From IMG/VR virus record IMGVR_UViG_3300028030_000040, positions 1-32,689 of that record: DNA of 32,689 bases. One strand, written 5' to 3'. A program made the translations under genes and the position numbers. The notes under the pieces are model-generated. The model was not told the origin of the DNA and made no database searches. It was given only the letters and a program-made list of their open reading frames with translations. This stretch comes from a virus. Shown piece by piece: positions 1,670 to 30,163 of the stretch (position 1 is the stretch's first letter; the number at the start of each line of letters is the position of its first letter).

Positions 1670-1854
1670 TTATAAACCCTCATGGTCTGTTCAAATTTCC
1701 GAACATTTACCGGGTCGAACATCAAACGTCCGGCAATCCGCATCGGCTGCAGTATGTCTGCATATCTTTTAGCCCAGGCATAAACAGTATCAGGCTTTTT
1801 AACAGAAAATCGTGCTTGCATATCTTTGACTGTCAGATGTGTTTTCCTTTTCAC
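1666..1854 (-). CDS. Small HTH DNA-binding protein, excisionase-like
   Basis: A 62-residue protein beginning at a GTG whose last two bases are part of the TGA of the recombinase gene upstream (GTGA overlap). The sequence (TVKDMQARFSVKKPDTVYAWAKR, then GRLMFDPVNVRKF) has the layout of winged-helix MerR/excisionase-type proteins: a helix-turn-helix, then a short beta wing ending in a 'FDP..V..F' segment. Direct coupling to a tyrosine recombinase suggests that it acts as a directionality or accessory factor for that enzyme, which is inference from position. It could also be a general early repressor. Confidence 0.65.
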   Translation of the reverse strand: MKRKTHLTVKDMQARFSVKKPDTVYAWAKRYADILQPMRIAGRLMFDPVNVRKFEQTMRVYK

Positions 1855-2468
1855 ACGCCCACCGCATCAATAGTTGAGTCAATTTCCTCAGTGCGGAACG
1901 ATAAATACTTGTCTGTTGAGTCAATACTTGCATGACCCAACGCCTTGGACGTCACCCGGAAAGCATCTATCGGCTCACCTGCCGCTGATCTGTTAAGCAG
2001 ATGGTCATACACATTATTAGCAAATGTTTTCCGCATTGCGTGAGTCCCTAGCTTGCCGGTAAGCCCAGCCAGCTTGTACGCCTTATTCAAAACCCGCCAA
2101 GCCTGAATCCGTCCTATCGCTCCGTCACCGCGAATAGACATAAAAACAGGGTCAGAAGACTGCACATGCCCCAACCTGCTCAACATCGATAACCATGGAG
2201 CAATCGCTTTTTTAGCATGAGCATTCAGACGGACACTCCGACTTGACTTGTTCCCCTTCATGTTCTTTTTCGAGACCGTCAAAACATCAACAATCGACCC
2301 ATCATCATTAAGGATATCGCAGATCCTGACCGCAAGCAGCTCCGACACCCGAAAACCGGTATTAGCTCCCAGCAGAAAAAAAGCAAGATTACGACATCCC
2401 ATGACACCAACAAACATCCCCCGCAATCCCTCAACCTCATTACGTTTCAACGGTCTCGAACCTTTCAC
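1851..2468 (-). CDS. Second tyrosine recombinase, catalytic domain only
   Basis: A 205-residue tyrosine recombinase consisting of the catalytic domain alone. The residues are in order: Arg 40 (TGFRVSE), Lys near 74, HxxR at 143-146 (HAMRKTF), His 179 (LGHASID) and Tyr 188 (DKYLS). It lacks the SAM-like core-binding domain, like FimB/FimE-sized enzymes. I chose the GTG at 2468, with a GGGTGGAAG site upstream, because the conserved domain starts there. The frame stays open to a TTG at 2540 with no visible ribosome site. It lies far from attP, in the replication operon and coupled to a small HTH protein, so dimer resolution or DNA inversion is more likely than prophage integration (inference). 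Confidence 0.85.
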   Translation of the reverse strand: MKGSRPLKRNEVEGLRGMFVGVMGCRNLAFFLLGANTGFRVSELLAVRICDILNDDGSIVDVLTVSKKNMKGNKSSRSVRLNAHAKKAIAPWLSMLSRLGHVQSSDPVFMSIRGDGAIGRIQAWRVLNKAYKLAGLTGKLGTHAMRKTFANNVYDHLLNRSAAGEPIDAFRVTSKALGHASIDSTDKYLSFRTEEIDSTIDAVGV

Positions 2469-2555
2469 GCTTCCACCCGTCCAACACCCACACAGCACCA
2501 ACAGCCCACCCCACAGCCCCGTCTGTATCCGGCAAGGCAATGTATGCTAATTCTG

Positions 2556-6523: not shown

Positions 6524-7039
6524 ATGGGATATGTAGAAAACAATTTAATGAGCGGCGAGAAAGTCTTATACCGGGGAAAGGTCCACTGGTTTGTTTATGT
6601 CCCTGCTGCCATATTCTGGTTTTTATCTATTTCTATAATGTTTGATTCGGAAGCTGCCCCGGTAGTTGTAATCATTGCCCCGATTGCTATTTTTTTTACG
6701 GTAAGGGCTCTCATAGTCTCAAAATCAACAGAGGTAGCAGTAACAACACGCAGAATCATTGCCAAGACCGGATTTTTAAGAACATCAACAATCGAGCTAA
6801 ACCATCAAAAAGTTGAAAGCTTTGCAGTAAATCAAGGTCTCGCTGGTAACGTGTTCGGATTTGGCACAATCACAATAAACGGAACAGGCGGCATCCATAC
6901 GCCCATAAAAAACATCGCAGACCCGCTACAATTCAGGCGGAAAGCAATGGAGGCAATAGACGGAAAACAAAACCCGGTAAAAAGGAACCCGGCAGCAAAA
7001 CAAGAGGACGATCAGCCAATAAGATACGTCATAAAATGA
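6524..7039 (+). CDS. Bacterial PH-domain membrane protein
   Basis: A 171-residue protein of the bPH (YdbS/YdbT-like) type. The N-terminus (NNLMSGEKVLYRGKVHW) leads into two membrane helices (about residues 22-40 and 44-62), and then the PH domain with TEVAVTTRRIIAKTGFL, IELNHQKVESFAVNQGL and FGFGTITINGTGG. It lies in the lysogeny operon between repressor and integrase; its stop overlaps the integrase start (ATGA), so it is expressed in the lysogen. A membrane protein made from a prophage's repressor operon could alter the host envelope or block superinfection, which is inference from position. The family assignment is firm. Confidence 0.85.
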   Translation: MGYVENNLMSGEKVLYRGKVHWFVYVPAAIFWFLSISIMFDSEAAPVVVIIAPIAIFFTVRALIVSKSTEVAVTTRRIIAKTGFLRTSTIELNHQKVESFAVNQGLAGNVFGFGTITINGTGGIHTPIKNIADPLQFRRKAMEAIDGKQNPVKRNPAAKQEDDQPIRYVIK

Positions 7040-8055
7040 GCGTGAGACCCCATCCAACAAAAGGGAAAGGATGGTGGCAAATAGATATAGGACACGGAAA
7101 AAACCGCCAGCGTCCGGCGTTCCGTGGCAGTTTTGAGGATGCGGCAGCATTCGAGGCAGCCATCAGGCAAAAACGCCCGGAAGAGGTCAGGAGTTCAGCC
7201 CCGAAAATAAAAGAATTGTTTGTCCCGTTCCTGCACTGGTACACGTCGGAAGCCGCAGAAAGAACGATAAAAGATATCCGGTTTTCAATAGACCTCTATT
7301 TCGCCCCCTGGTTTGGCAATCTGCAACCATCAAGCCTTAACCTGTCACTCCTCAACAACTTTCGAGATACACTGTCAAAAGACGGTCTCAGTCCGGCAAC
7401 AATCAACAAACACCTGAACTATTTTTCCACCCTGCTAAAATGGGCAGCAGAAAACGGACACTGCCAACCACTCCCATTCCGCCTGCCAAGATACCCAAAA
7501 AAAAAGACCACAGCAAAACCAAAAAGACCGCTCACAACAAGACAAATAGACGCAATCTACAAACAGATTCCAGAAGAGTACCGGCTGATATTTTTACTCA
7601 TGGCAGATCACGGGCTACGGATCGCCGAGGCGACAAGCCTAAAAGCAGAGGACATAAACGAGCACAACGAGACTTTTACTTTTTTGGGAAAAGGAGGGAA
7701 ATATAGGACTGTCCCGTATATGTCCAACAGGTTTGCAAAAGTGCTATCAAAAGCCATGGACAGCCACCCGGACGGATACTTGACGATAAACAAAAAAACA
7801 GGAGGAAAATACACAACCATGTGGAAGCCGTTAAAAAGAGCGGCAAAAGAGGCAGGAATAAAAAGAGAGGTTAACCATCACTTGTTACGCCACAGCTTTG
7901 CGACAATCGCAGCCCAAAGCGGAATGAATCCCCATGCCCTGCAGCGGATACTGGGTCACGCAAGCATAGAGACAACAAATAAGATATACACCAACGTGAG
8001 CCTTGATTTTGTGGGAAATGAGGGCAGAAAACTCAGGGACAAAAAAGGTAATTGA
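7036..8055 (+). CDS. int: Phage integrase, tyrosine recombinase
   Basis: A 339-residue integrase of the XerC/D-like family. An N-terminal region is followed by a SAM-like core-binding domain (about residues 57-140) and the catalytic domain with all active residues: Arg 195 (HGLRIAE), Lys 222 (GKGGKYR), His 282-x-x-Arg 285 (HHLLRHSF), His 308 (LGHASIE) and nucleophile Tyr 318 (NKIYTN). Its start overlaps the PH-domain gene. Within 65 bases after its stop lies a tRNA-Gln 3' half that should be attP. The first candidate arm-type repeat overlaps its last codons. This is the enzyme expected to integrate the phage into host tRNA-Gln. Confidence 0.95.
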   Translation: MSVRPHPTKGKGWWQIDIGHGKNRQRPAFRGSFEDAAAFEAAIRQKRPEEVRSSAPKIKELFVPFLHWYTSEAAERTIKDIRFSIDLYFAPWFGNLQPSSLNLSLLNNFRDTLSKDGLSPATINKHLNYFSTLLKWAAENGHCQPLPFRLPRYPKKKTTAKPKRPLTTRQIDAIYKQIPEEYRLIFLLMADHGLRIAEATSLKAEDINEHNETFTFLGKGGKYRTVPYMSNRFAKVLSKAMDSHPDGYLTINKKTGGKYTTMWKPLKRAAKEAGIKREVNHHLLRHSFATIAAQSGMNPHALQRILGHASIETTNKIYTNVSLDFVGNEGRKLRDKKGN

Positions 8056-8251: not shown

Positions 8252-8455
8252 TCATGGGGCTGTTGATAGCTGCAAGGCAGACTGTGGGCAGTCTTTTATT
8301 GCTGTCTCGATGTTTTCAATATTATCCTGCAGGTGTTTTTCTGATATCAATATTTCCCCGGCGTGTTCAGTCATAAATCCAGGCAGGGTGTCATTACACA
8401 TGCCGCACGATACATACCCGGCACAGATATAAGGCATTGCTTTTAAAATATACAT
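8252..8455 (-). CDS. Ferredoxin-like small protein
   Basis: A 67-residue protein that aligns in length and layout with monocluster [4Fe-4S] ferredoxins: ICAGYVSCGMCNDTLPGF near the start, an acidic middle, and AIKDCPQSALQL at the end, matching the closing CP..A motif. The cluster motif is irregular: two Cys are in register (SCGMC) and the CP Cys is present, but the Cys that should precede the first P is Leu and the first Cys is displaced. Cluster binding is therefore uncertain. The ATG at 8455 has a GAGGG ribosome site and overlaps the lysozyme gene. It is the last gene before attP, the usual place for a moron or for host DNA picked up by imprecise excision. Confidence 0.5.
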   Translation of the reverse strand: MYILKAMPYICAGYVSCGMCNDTLPGFMTEHAGEILISEKHLQDNIENIETAIKDCPQSALQLSTAP

Positions 8456-8901
8456 TTGCCAGCCCTCATTTGCTCCGACAGCTCCATTGCCCGGTTCCCT
8501 ACCTGCACAGACCATAATGAGTTTAGCATTTCATCAGCAGCCCCTGCGTAGTCTTCTGCTTCCATCTTTTTTAGCATCTTTTCAAACTTTAACAGTCCGG
8601 AAATGCCGAGATTGTAAGCCATGTTGGTAAGCACACTTTGTCTTGTCGGGGTGAGACTTGACCAGCATTTTATTACATGCTGCAAGGTGTTCTTTATTTT
8701 CAGGACCGACTCTTCCAGCAACATGGATGCCTGTCGCTCTGTGATTCCTGCGGACAGGTTAAGCCCGTATCCTATGGTAAGATGACCTGTTGTGTCTGTA
8801 TAAGGTCGTGAGCGGAATCCTTCGTGCTTTTTTAGCTGGTTGATTACGTTTTGCACTCCTGTCATGCTCCCGGCATGATCGATCATACTATCAACAGTCA
8901 T
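8443..8901 (-). CDS. T4-type lysozyme (GH24 endolysin)
   Basis: A 152-residue muramidase that hydrolyses the MurNAc-GlcNAc bond of peptidoglycan. The T4 lysozyme catalytic triad is present with exact family spacing: Glu 27 (KKHEGFR), Asp 36 (PYTD) and Thr 42 (LTIGYG). The downstream N-M-A-Y-N-L-G segment and W (SLWS) also fit GH24. There is no N-terminal signal or SAR helix, so release needs a holin; a candidate lies two genes upstream. The ATG at 8901 follows GGGAG at short spacing. It is the endolysin of the lysis cassette. Confidence 0.95.
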   Translation of the reverse strand: MTVDSMIDHAGSMTGVQNVINQLKKHEGFRSRPYTDTTGHLTIGYGLNLSAGITERQASMLLEESVLKIKNTLQHVIKCWSSLTPTRQSVLTNMAYNLGISGLLKFEKMLKKMEAEDYAGAADEMLNSLWSVQVGNRAMELSEQMRAGKCIF

Positions 8902-8960: not shown

Positions 8961-9413
8961 TCAGGACACACCATTTATTTCGTTTTCCTTTTCTTTTTTA
9001 AAAATCTTATAGCCAATCGTGCTTACTGCCAGAAAATAGGCGAAGCCCTTTATCGTCCTCCAAATCCTTTGCATCCAGTTTCCATCACGGAAGAGGTACA
9101 CAGAGAAATTAAAAAGGAACATGGCATTGCTAATCATAAAATCCGTCAAGGTATCTGAAGCCGTTGACCACGACTCGTCATGGATATGTCAGATGTGGGA
9201 AACTTTTTTACCGCCGATTGTTTCCGGTATTATTTTGTCACCGATTCCTGATCCTGCACCGCAGAATGTGGGGTACTCGTCAACTGACAATGGCAGAAAA
9301 GAAAACGATTTTGGGGCGAGGTATGATACCCCTTCCAGACTTACAGTTTTAAACTGCAGGCGTTTTTTGTTCTTCGCTGCCGTTCTTTTCTGTCGTGTAT
9401 TTGCTGATTGCAT
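8961..9413 (-). CDS. Phospholipase A2-like phage protein, candidate selenoprotein (in-frame TGA)
   Basis: One reading frame from ATG 9413 (AGGGGG site six bases upstream) to the stop at 8961, interrupted once by TGA at 9191-9189 (codon 75). Read through it, the 150-residue product resembles a phage family I know with a CGAGSGIGDK..PETI motif, then Cys-x-x-His-Asp, and an aromatic 'R..A..Y..AV...G' tail. Here the motif reads TGA-His-Ile-His-Asp (His 78, Asp 79), so the TGA stands exactly at the conserved Cys. The His-Asp pair matches the catalytic motif of phospholipase A2-type enzymes. A selenocysteine at a Cys site is the classical mark of a selenoprotein. A nonsense mutation is the alternative. 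The downstream half has no good independent start. It sits in the lysis cassette before the lysozyme gene. Confidence 0.6.
9145..9188 (-). promoter_or_regulatory. Candidate bacterial SECIS hairpins after the TGA
   Basis: Two alternative hairpins follow the TGA on the transcript. A: CCAUGA/UCGUGG (9183-9168) with loop CGAG, 11 bases after the TGA, closer than usual. B: GUCAA/UUGAC (9168-9145), loop beginning 25 bases after the TGA with G as second base, optionally with an inner GG/CC pair. B meets the usual distance and loop-G rules of bacterial SECIS elements, but the stem is short. Function unproved. Confidence 0.3.
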
Positions 9414-9591
9414 CGACTGCCCCCTGGATAGCAATATAAATTCCGCTGAGATAATAGATCAGATCGCTGTTGCTGTTTTTTATTGTCCCCATTGTCTCGG
9501 CAAGCACTGCGGAAGTATCAACACCATGCGACTGGGACACGGCAAGCACTGCAGCGGCTGCCAGCACACTTAATTTTTTTGATATTTTCAT
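9349..9591 (-). CDS. Small membrane protein, holin candidate
   Basis: An 80-residue protein with a signal-like N-terminal hydrophobic segment (KKLSVLAAAAVLAVSQSHG, about residues 5-22) and a second moderately hydrophobic segment (DLIYYLSGIYIAIQGAVDAI, about 43-62), then a charged tail. The ATG at 9591 follows AAGGGG at six bases; the open frame continues upstream but lacks a start signal. Size, topology and place just upstream of the lysozyme fit a class II holin. If the first segment is cleaved it would instead be a small periplasmic or membrane protein. The next gene begins inside its 3' end. Confidence 0.5.
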   Translation of the reverse strand: MKISKKLSVLAAAAVLAVSQSHGVDTSAVLAETMGTIKNSNSDLIYYLSGIYIAIQGAVDAISKYTTEKNGSEEQKTPAV

Positions 9592-9601
9592 TTTTTGCCC
9601 C

Positions 9602-10276
9602 TTACTGATAATCGATAGTAACCTTTGTGGCTTTACATCCGACAGGTCCAAACACAGACGCCCTGGTGCCGTTTGCCTCTTCCGGTTTGTTTTTGGTGCC
9701 ACAGAAATAGATTGCCCCCTGGCTGCCCTTGCCGAAATCATCGGCAGCATCCGGCACGTTTAAGCCGCTGCACCCACCATCAAAACTTATTTTGATCGGT
9801 CCGCCGTAAGCTGTACCTGTTTTTGGCAACCAGGTAAAAACTCTGTTGTGGGCAGGCTGATAGCTCATGCTGTGTGTTTCTGTCTTTGCTGAGCCTGCAG
9901 GTGGCTTTATCAATCCTTCCGGGATCGTCACGCCTGGCAGTATTTCTGTGGGTTTCTGTGCTGCGGTGTCACCGGATAACGCCTCAACAACTCCGCCCAG
10001 GCTTTTTGCTCCGGACAATGCGATACTGTCCGGAATAGACATCTCTGTTTTTGGTGATATCGTGTTTGCCGGGTCGTTGTCTGTCGTTTGATTTGTTTTC
10101 TGGTCTGTCTGTGCATCTACTGATAGCGGCGTGTATAACACGATGTTCCCGCTGCCATTATTGCGGATTGTTATATCGTATTCCCGTTTTGTGATGTCTC
10201 CGGTGGTGTCCGCAGTTGAGCAAGCAGCCAGCAAAAACATAATTATTATTCCGCAGCCAATATTAATTTTTCTCAC
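9602..10276 (-). CDS. Phage lipoprotein
   Basis: A 224-residue predicted lipoprotein: basic start (MRKINIG), hydrophobic segment and lipobox LAAC with the acylated Cys near residue 19, then a Thr/Asn/Asp-rich linker and a folded C-terminal domain with several Cys (GGCSGL, YFCGTK, GPVGCK). It overlaps the upstream coiled-coil gene by 14 bases. Lipoproteins in lysis cassettes can be outer spanins, but those are usually much shorter. Superinfection exclusion or envelope modification is equally possible. Localisation is well supported; function is unknown. Confidence 0.7.
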   Translation of the reverse strand: MRKINIGCGIIIMFLLAACSTADTTGDITKREYDITIRNNGSGNIVLYTPLSVDAQTDQKTNQTTDNDPANTISPKTEMSIPDSIALSGAKSLGGVVEALSGDTAAQKPTEILPGVTIPEGLIKPPAGSAKTETHSMSYQPAHNRVFTWLPKTGTAYGGPIKISFDGGCSGLNVPDAADDFGKGSQGAIYFCGTKNKPEEANGTRASVFGPVGCKATKVTIDYQ

Positions 10277-29089: not shown

Positions 29090-29308
29090 TCAATCATATT
29101 CAGGCACGCCTGCCAGTTCCTCCAATTCGATTATCAGCAAGGTTATATGTTTTGCAAGCAAGCCCACAGCGTCAACAAGAGTACCAAGTGTGTATCCATT
29201 GGGATCTTCAGCCACATGCTCAGTATCTATCGCTCTCTTCACACCTTCCAGTGCACCTGTAGCCTCCTTTATTTCTTTTGTTTTTTGTTTTAGTTCTTCA
29301 TGCGTCAT
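29090..29308 (-). CDS. Small helical protein of the antirepressor cassette
   Basis: A 72-residue protein, helical throughout: an N-terminal Lys/Glu-rich helix (THEELKQKTKEIKEATGALEGVKRAI) and a hydrophobic second half (LGTLVDAVGLLAKHITLLIIELEEL). The ATG at 29308 has GGAGG nine bases upstream and overlaps the end of the antirepressor gene. No known family. Its position makes it part of the c4/antirepressor cassette, perhaps an auxiliary of the antirepressor. Confidence 0.6.
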   Translation of the reverse strand: MTHEELKQKTKEIKEATGALEGVKRAIDTEHVAEDPNGYTLGTLVDAVGLLAKHITLLIIELEELAGVPEYD

Positions 29309-30014
29309 CGTGAGCAACCTCCACAGCCAGATACCCTGCCAGACGTGTCAGCCCCTTGGGAGTGATTAAAACTTGCTCGGTAACTTTTTCCCGACCGTCA
29401 GAAGTAGAAACCATTGTAACTTTATGGTGCAAAACTCCCTGCTGTATTCTGTTCTGGTAGCCAATCCAGCCTTTTCCCCCTTGTCTCCTGTATATCCATT
29501 TGTTTTCAGATAACCAGAGGAACAGGTCTTTCGGGCGAATCTGCAAGGTTTTGGCTGTGTCAGTGATACAGGTCAGCCCGTCAGCCGTGGCAATCCGGTC
29601 AAATCCAGCCACTTTCGGGGCTGCTTCTTTTACTTCTTCCTCAAGGGCAAGGACTTTTTCTGTATAGGTAAGCAATATTCCCCGCATGGCTGCCGGGTCA
29701 TTAAGGGCTTTCATGGGGTCTTGCTCTTTTTTCTCCAACTCCACCCATCTTGAAATAACCTGACTTCTCCTTTTGGCGTCATAACCAGTGACCAGAGTCA
29801 TGGTCGCCTCGAAGTCGAGTAGGTACATTGACTGTTTTCTGTTTGACTTGTCGGTGTAGGAGGTGAGTCCAAAACTGGACTCACCTATTGCTGACTGGTC
29901 AACAAGTGATTTTATATCCCTCATCACTTTATTATGTTTTTTCTTGGTAAGTTCTGCAATGTCCAGACTGGACATCTTTTCTGTGGCGGACCTGGTGGTA
30001 ATCAGACTGCTCAT
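29298..30014 (-). CDS. ant: Antirepressor, Rha N-terminal plus KilAC/ANT C-terminal domain
   Basis: A 238-residue antirepressor. The N-terminal domain (ITTRSATEKMSSLDIAELTKKKHNKVMRDI; LLDFEATMTLVTGYDAKRRSQVISRWVELE) is the phage Rha domain. The C-terminal half (EEEVKEAAPKVAGFDRIA; AKTLQIRPKDLFLWLSENKWIYR; ITPKGLTRLA) is the ANT/KilAC domain of P1 Ant and relatives. It should inactivate a phage repressor, here probably the peptidase-free repressor at 5991. The AGGAG site seven bases before the ATG lies inside the 10-base target of the c4-like RNA upstream. The start overlaps a short ORF by ATGA, so both antisense control and translational coupling are predicted. It is placed, unusually, inside the head gene cluster. 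Confidence 0.85.
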   Translation of the reverse strand: MSSLITTRSATEKMSSLDIAELTKKKHNKVMRDIKSLVDQSAIGESSFGLTSYTDKSNRKQSMYLLDFEATMTLVTGYDAKRRSQVISRWVELEKKEQDPMKALNDPAAMRGILLTYTEKVLALEEEVKEAAPKVAGFDRIATADGLTCITDTAKTLQIRPKDLFLWLSENKWIYRRQGGKGWIGYQNRIQQGVLHHKVTMVSTSDGREKVTEQVLITPKGLTRLAGYLAVEVAHDDA

Positions 30015-30163
30015 AACAATGCTCCTTTGTGAAATAAATTTTCACCATTTCTCGACTCCAAACGAAAAATGGCTGTTAAGCAGGTTGGAATACCGCACAA
30101 AGGAACGGTGAACCCGAAGGCTCCCTGCTCAACAGCCAAAGAGACTTGTTGAGGCGTGGACAT
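30011..30163 (-). CDS. Short Icd/Ash-position ORF overlapping ant
   Basis: A 50-residue open frame (start MSTPQQVSLAVEQGAFGFTV) whose stop overlaps the antirepressor start as ATGA. In phages P1 and P7 the icd frame occupies this place and its translation is coupled to ant. It runs through the whole c4-like RNA, so part of its sequence is dictated by RNA structure and it may be little more than a coupling leader. A GGCGG seven bases before the ATG could serve as ribosome site and is itself the 3' arm of a terminator-like hairpin. Coding status moderate. Confidence 0.5.
   Translation of the reverse strand: MSTPQQVSLAVEQGAFGFTVPLCGIPTCLTAIFRLESRNGENLFHKGALL
30071..30137 (-). ncRNA. c4: C4-type antisense RNA controlling ant
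   Basis: The transcript folds by inspection into a three-way junction. A 14-bp closing stem (30137-30124 with 30084-30071, one G.U) encloses hairpin one, GAGCC-UUCG-GGUUC (30123-30110), and hairpin two, ACCG/CGGU (30109-30092), whose 10-base loop UUCCUUUGUG is complementary to CACAAAGGAG at 30031-30022. That target contains the antirepressor Shine-Dalgarno (one G.U pair). The closing stem is followed by AUUUUU, so it could also end transcription. Antisense control from the same strand and upstream of ant is exactly the mechanism of c4 RNA in P1/P7. Confidence 0.8.

Follow-up and report, generated by a model that had tools for sequence, protein, structure and literature searches.

A phage PLA2-like gene with an in-frame TGA at a conserved cysteine column: a probable selenoprotein of the lysis cassette

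Two open half-genes lie in the same frame on the minus strand of the window (the whole stretch of 32,689 nucleotides that was analysed, an IMG/VR virus record), and they are separated by a single TGA. This locus raises the question of whether the TGA cuts the gene short or is read as an amino acid. The original prediction proposed one PLA2-like phage protein carrying selenocysteine (Sec) in place of a conserved Cys. We found the best explanation to be a PLA2-like lysis-cassette protein in which UGA75 is recoded by the host as Sec via SelB and SelC, and we give this reading a probability of roughly 80%. Before the wider scan of viral contigs, the evidence from the window alone was suggestive only; recoding is supported mainly because seven further TGA-bearing genes were found and their extra TGAs all fell on Cys columns.

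Reading frame, stop usage and lysis-gene surroundings

The gene content of the window (TerS/TerL, portal, protease, capsid, tail, integrase and repressor genes) is that of a temperate, lambdoid-like phage. The features at the locus are as follows.

8961..9413, minus strand: PLA2-like phage gene, 150 aa with the internal TGA read; terminal TGA at 8963-8961
9189..9191, minus strand: internal in-frame TGA (codon 75) at the column where the homologues have an invariant Cys; proposed Sec codon
9261..9263, minus strand: codon (TGC) of the invariant Cys51, putative selenenylsulfide partner of residue 75
9159..9175, minus strand: proposed SECIS hairpin, with stem AGUCGU/ACGGCU, apical loop GGUCA and a weaker lower stem around it
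9418..9424, minus strand: SD-like AGGGGG(C), 5' of the ATG at 9413, read from the sequence
9349..9592, minus strand: overlapping small membrane protein upstream, holin-like by position and hydrophobicity
8443..8901, minus strand: endolysin (Phage_lysozyme) directly downstream; PF00959 E 3e-17, PHROG endolysin 2.5e-25
9602..10276, minus strand: lipoprotein-like gene, located upstream; L003/L110 have its syntenic counterpart upstream of their Cys homologue

The ATG at 9413-9411 opened a run of 74 codons that ended at the in-frame TGA at 9191-9189, beyond which 75 further open codons in the same frame led to the second TGA at 8963-8961. Across 9413-8961, the frame contained no frameshift and no stop besides the internal TGA. 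With the frame intact and both sides of the TGA conserved in homologues, the two halves form a single gene, as had been proposed. The predicted ribosome site of the upstream half was also found, in the form of the SD-like AGGGGG carried by the sequence that precedes the ATG at 9413 (...CCAGGGGGCAGTCGATG).

UGA had been described as not generally reassigned in this phage. This was confirmed: global reassignment is excluded for the window because TGA ends 17 of its 41 called ORFs, and TGA also terminates the PLA2-like gene itself. In every TGA-bearing contig discussed below, TGA was likewise an ordinary stop, and the extensions past stops were mostly short. A global reassignment of TGA to Trp or Gly, or leaky readthrough by a near-cognate tRNA, agrees with the fact that the in-frame TGA is open under code 4, but it is very improbable given this stop usage, the use of TGG for Trp in the same genes, and the placement of the extra TGAs of related genes on Cys columns only, with none at a Trp or Gly position. 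A global code change was accordingly rejected. Inspection of the other TGA-ended window genes for extensions revealed no second selenoprotein-like case. A tRNA scan of the window found none, and tRNA-Sec was absent from the window and the related loci scanned.

The location in a lysis cassette was upheld by the overlap with the holin-like gene and by the Phage_lysozyme endolysin directly downstream. The start of the holin-like ORF was placed at about 9592 within a called ORF of 9349-9750, and its comparison with PHROG holin gave only E 0.13. The lipoprotein-like gene shared 32% identity over 216 aa with its counterpart in L003/L110. Lysis genes adjoined the PLA2-like gene in the window, L001, L015 and L121; the L001 homologue had holin-like and endolysin-like neighbours, and the L015 homologue was followed by a GH108 endolysin.

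Several other features of the window were observed. A C4 antisense RNA (30065-30143, minus strand; Rfam RF01695, 47.4 bits) sits just upstream of an antirepressor-like gene at 29298-30014; a C4 RNA beside an antirepressor gene is the arrangement of P1/P7-type immunity regions. The phage also carries two tyrosine-recombinase-like genes, at 1851-2540 (minus strand; 70% identity to a gene in G020) and at 7036-8055 (plus strand). Between the repressor and the integrase lies a gene for a PH-domain protein (6524-7039, plus strand) with 35% identity to proteins on small Enterobacteriaceae plasmids.

A PLA2-like family and the residue at the TGA column

The assignment to a PLA2-like family held. The family profile matched the PLA2 structures 4aup, 8k1w and 1faz (E 0.0003-0.003), and two TGA-bearing relatives matched Pfam PF09056 (L121, E 8e-6; L122, E 3e-5) at 24.8-26.8 bits, just below the curated cut-off of 29.4. 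Against the same profile and cut-off, the homologues scored 15.7-19.6 bits, and the window protein was below the cut-off and gave no PLA2 match. The AlphaFold model of the window protein had a pLDDT of 79, and its best PDB match in Foldseek was 4aup, with a probability of 0.92, a TM-score of 0.43-0.52 and a weak E value of 0.69. Alignment to the PLA2 structures revealed both the C-x-x-H-D active-site helix and the upstream disulfide-partner Cys.

In the Streptomyces PLA2, the Cys before x-x-H-D forms a disulfide with an upstream Cys. When the family was aligned with 1faz, the U before x-x-H-D occupied the site of this disulfide Cys, and the Cys51 column, aligned via shorter relatives, corresponded to Cys45 of the Streptomyces enzyme. 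The comparison of L122 with 1faz placed U22 at the Cys that precedes the catalytic His by three residues, and C6 at the partner Cys. In the window protein, Cys51 and U75 lie on either side of a Ca-loop-like stretch, and the motif reads U75-H-I-H78-D79. The original prediction had set Sec beside the catalytic His; the position, three residues before a catalytic-type His-Asp, stood, but the residue corresponds to a disulfide Cys and not to the catalytic nucleophile. Replacement of the PLA2 nucleophile by Sec was rejected, since the residue aligns with the disulfide Cys. Because Sec would replace a disulfide Cys, a selenenylsulfide with Cys51 would be expected in the window protein, and a diselenide would be possible in two relatives, L123 and L128.

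We found that the TGA column was TGC or TGT (Cys) in all eight homologues (L001, L002, L003, L005, L015, L018, L021 and L022), which comprise seven IMG/VR contigs and the Thiohalocapsa phage LS06-2018-MD03 (L002). Their identity to the window protein was 18-50% (L003, 50%; L015, 47%; L001, 39-41%), the Cys lay within C-x-x-H-D, and the frame was conserved on both sides of the column; the TGA thus takes the exact site of the conserved Cys, as had been noted. In the alignment of 9 sequences, C51, C/U75, H78 and D79 were invariant, and the window protein retained every invariant residue (C51, G52, P63, G68, H78, D79, N102, Y126, V130, G134 and F138). The nearest phage, G021/L110, carried TGC at the column and was syntenic with the window (TerL 73%, portal 72%, protease 79%).

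A search for near-identical DNA was empty, and phages and plasmids contained no similar DNA. The 19 other TerL-related phage records, several of which are fragments, contained no clear PLA2-like gene and gave two weak matches. The family profile had no match among GTDB genomes and therefore led to no host, and comparisons of the integrase and the PH-domain protein indicated no single host. A narrow TGA pattern (KI[IV]P...TGA..HD) had zero matches in viral and genome contigs. Small PLA2-like Cys ORFs were also observed in Pseudomonas phage Epa43 (L135) and Aeromonas phage PCAh2 (L136), where they are unannotated in the GenBank records.

TGA codons on cysteine columns and downstream hairpins

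A broader pattern (P[ED]x3Gx6-TGA-x2-HD-x2-[WY-like]) run against viral contigs returned 22 stretches, among which were seven distinct PLA2-like genes open on either side of a TGA at the Cys75 column: L134, L125, L123 (=L132), L128, L115, L121 and L122 (=L124). In related phages the column is therefore Cys in eight homologues and TGA in seven further distinct genes, although these counts give no TGA:Cys frequency, as the pattern itself required a TGA. L134 had the form of the window gene, with Cys51 retained and a single TGA. In L123 and L128, the Cys51 column was TGA as well as the Cys75 column; both disulfide Cys are thus TGA at L123 3241-3312 and L128 2459-2530 (reverse). In L115, L121 and L122, a TGA-TGA pair stood ahead of x-I/L-H-D-E, with a third TGA in LREU or FKLU; these genes are about 90 codons long (L122 5500-5577; L121 10341-10418, reverse; L115 1583-1660). 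Cys relatives of these three from isolated phages had CC and C in precisely the three corresponding columns, as in Pseudomonas phage Epa43 (CCKAHDEDY...FQC), Aeromonas phages (CCHQHDRDY...LREC) and Aurantimonas phage AmM-1 (CCKAHD...ASC).

In total, five of the seven genes contained eight extra TGAs, which lay outside what the search pattern required. All eight fell on columns that are Cys in homologues, for which the chance probability is about 1e-11, and other Cys codons of the same genes remained TGC. The TGA-bearing contigs came from several metagenomes and had a GC content of 37-57%. On the tree, five changes between the TGA and Cys labels were needed, at least two of them forced by well-supported branches, and the long branches leave the exact number unsure.

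These findings bear on the proposal that a TGC/TGT codon became the window TGA by nonsense mutation, or by a sequencing or assembly error, leaving a truncated inactive protein. The window gene is represented by a single contig with a single TGA, and L003 and L015, its nearest relatives, carry TGC, which speaks against Sec and for such a change; in addition, 2 of 64 single stop-creating changes (~3%) would strike a Cys codon, and the stability of the downstream hairpin is ordinary. However, seven other genes have TGA at the Cys75 column, several with two or three TGAs that lie only on Cys columns, and the downstream half of the window gene retains all its invariant residues. Sequencing error is further disfavoured because two of the TGA genes recur identically in separate metagenome records (the pairs L122/L124 and L123/L132; 288/288 and 351/351 bases). 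Together with the GGUC hairpin described below, which stands at a SelB-compatible spacing and arose in 3 of 4000 synonymous versions of the gene, these observations make a mutation or error quite unlikely.

The multiple TGAs are also relevant to the main rival, a hairpin-dependent recoding of UGA as Cys, in which a second SelB* delivers a selC*-type tRNACys(UCA) aminoacylated by CysRS*. Systems of this kind have been described from Desulfobacterales and related anaerobes (PMC7609411), and they would account for the exchange of TGA with TGC/TGT at several Cys per protein, the double and triple cases included. The explanation is nevertheless unlikely: it needs a narrow host group, whereas the TGA genes span several metagenomes and the wide GC range given above, and the substitution affects the residues of the PLA2 disulfide, which is what Sec would be expected to replace, with the remaining Cys codons still TGC.

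We return to the Sec reading and to the hairpin of roughly bacterial SECIS type that had been predicted after the TGA. This hairpin is real and consists of 6 bp with a GGUCA loop starting 19 nt past the UGA (-8.8 kcal/mol). The published bacterial SECIS model calls for a loop of 3-9 nt with G in its first two positions, a stem of at least 4 bp, a spacing of 16-37 nt and an MFE of -7.5 or below (PMC13188914). The window hairpin satisfies these constraints, but the model is loose, being passed by about 15% of window TGAs (160/1083) and by 7-10% of synonymous recodings of the gene, and by energy alone the hairpin is ordinary (z -0.7 to +1.5). An Rfam search with the hairpin gave no match. The rarer feature was the GGUC loop, which followed 3 of the 1083 window TGAs, the gene's own TGA included.

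GGUC is the apical loop bound by SelB in E. coli. In the E. coli fdhF SECIS, the GGUC tetraloop lies at nt 22-25 from the UGA, and SelB makes its contacts in the loop. Similarly, the window GGUC lies at nt 23-26 from the UGA with a 6-bp stem beneath; it differs in its 5-nt loop (GGUCA) and in the lack of a clear bulged U, with a U-G wobble at a similar height, and its binding by SelB is a prediction.

In the window gene and its TGA relatives together, a model hairpin followed 9 of the 16 Cys-column TGAs. The comparison sets had lower shares: 9 of 66 for ordinary TGA stops (p 0.0008), 2 of 12 for the Cys codons of homologues (p 0.04) and 0 of 4 where TGA ends one of these genes. The GGUC loop followed 4 of the 16 Cys-column TGAs versus 3 of 1083 window TGAs, and none of the Cys homologues. 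Its distance from the Cys75-column UGA was 19 nt in the window, 23 in L134, and 27 in both L123 and L128. At least three GGUC placements appear to be separate because the supplying codons differ (W-S in the window, A-V-A in L134, G-R in L123 and L128). Against the Sec reading, no model hairpin followed the lone TGA of L125 or the UGA-UGA pairs of L115, L121 and L122; in L122, the UGA pair and the third UGA are separated by a 13-bp stem. A strong bSECIS-like hairpin (10 bp, -9.8 kcal/mol) was also observed after the Cys codon of the TGC homologue L015 (6001-6432), which may be left over from an ancestral Sec state or have arisen by chance.

The nearest relatives thus have Cys without a GGUC hairpin, a pattern that the original prediction had counted against itself. 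Cys/Sec pairs among homologues are, however, usual for selenoprotein families. The claim of a likely Sec at the conserved Cys withstood checks capable of overturning it and is supported by the recurring TGAs on Cys columns and by the GGUC hairpins.

Proposed decoding and relation to known systems

According to the preferred reading, Sec-tRNA(Sec) and host SelB would be recruited by the GGUC-loop hairpin 19 nt downstream of UGA75, Sec would be inserted there, and translation would proceed to the second UGA, which has no such hairpin and would terminate it. Sec75 would stand in for the Cys located three residues ahead of the catalytic-type His-Asp, and a Sec75-Cys51 selenenylsulfide would most likely substitute for the conserved PLA2 disulfide. 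Proteins of related phages would contain two or three such Sec residues. The product may act as a phospholipase and take part in lysis, perhaps by attack on the envelope or through redox- or selenium-gated timing. As a speculation, scarce Sec would yield only the 74-aa fragment, and lysis could follow selenium status.

Like bacterial selenoproteins with a bSECIS, the window gene has a UGA at the Cys of its homologues and a hairpin immediately downstream (PMC13188914). Unlike most known selenoprotein families, which are redox enzymes with UxxC or CxxU, it shows U-x-x-H-D in a PLA2-like hydrolase. The text of a 2026 review of prokaryotic selenoproteomes covering 119 families/subfamilies had no entry for a phospholipase, PF09056, PF07087, a phage or a virus (PMC13188914). 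The PF09056 enzymes of Streptomyces violaceoruber (1faz) and Tuber borchii (4aup) share the C-x-x-H-D helix, the upstream Cys and a C-terminal Y-x-x-V-x-x-x-G helix, whereas the window protein has a longer inter-Cys loop, a hydrophobic C-terminal half and the proposed Sec for Cys. Phage homologues of the same family and motif occur in Vibrio phage 1.097.O ('phospholipase A2 domain protein'), Thiohalocapsa phage LS06-2018-MD03, Pseudomonas phage Epa43 and Aeromonas phages (PHROG 6098); unlike the TGA genes, they have TGC or TGT at every U column. The selC* tRNACys(UCA)/SelB*/CysRS* system of Desulfobacterales likewise reads UGA for Cys codons but inserts Cys (PMC7609411). We found no report of a phage-encoded selenoprotein in the open-access literature, and the novelty is provisional.

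For the family as a whole, we consider it fairly probable that phages of Sec-using, probably anaerobic, bacteria repeatedly made this lysis-cassette protein a selenoprotein, with up to three Sec per about 95 aa in place of one or both partners of its disulfides, as a selenenylsulfide or a diselenide. If true, this would be the first family of phage-encoded selenoproteins, in which phages exploit the host Sec machinery for a lysis-associated enzyme and one short gene uses UGA as both Sec codon and terminator. Standard gene callers split or drop such genes, which would then be missed in annotations and viral proteomes. The family offers short natural SECIS elements and adjacent UGA-UGA genes that are testable in E. 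coli, where the processivity of SelB and the advantage of Sec over a structural Cys could be addressed. A hydrolase fold held by a disulfide would have gained selenium at that bond several times, and lysis would be tied to the host's selenium and redox state.
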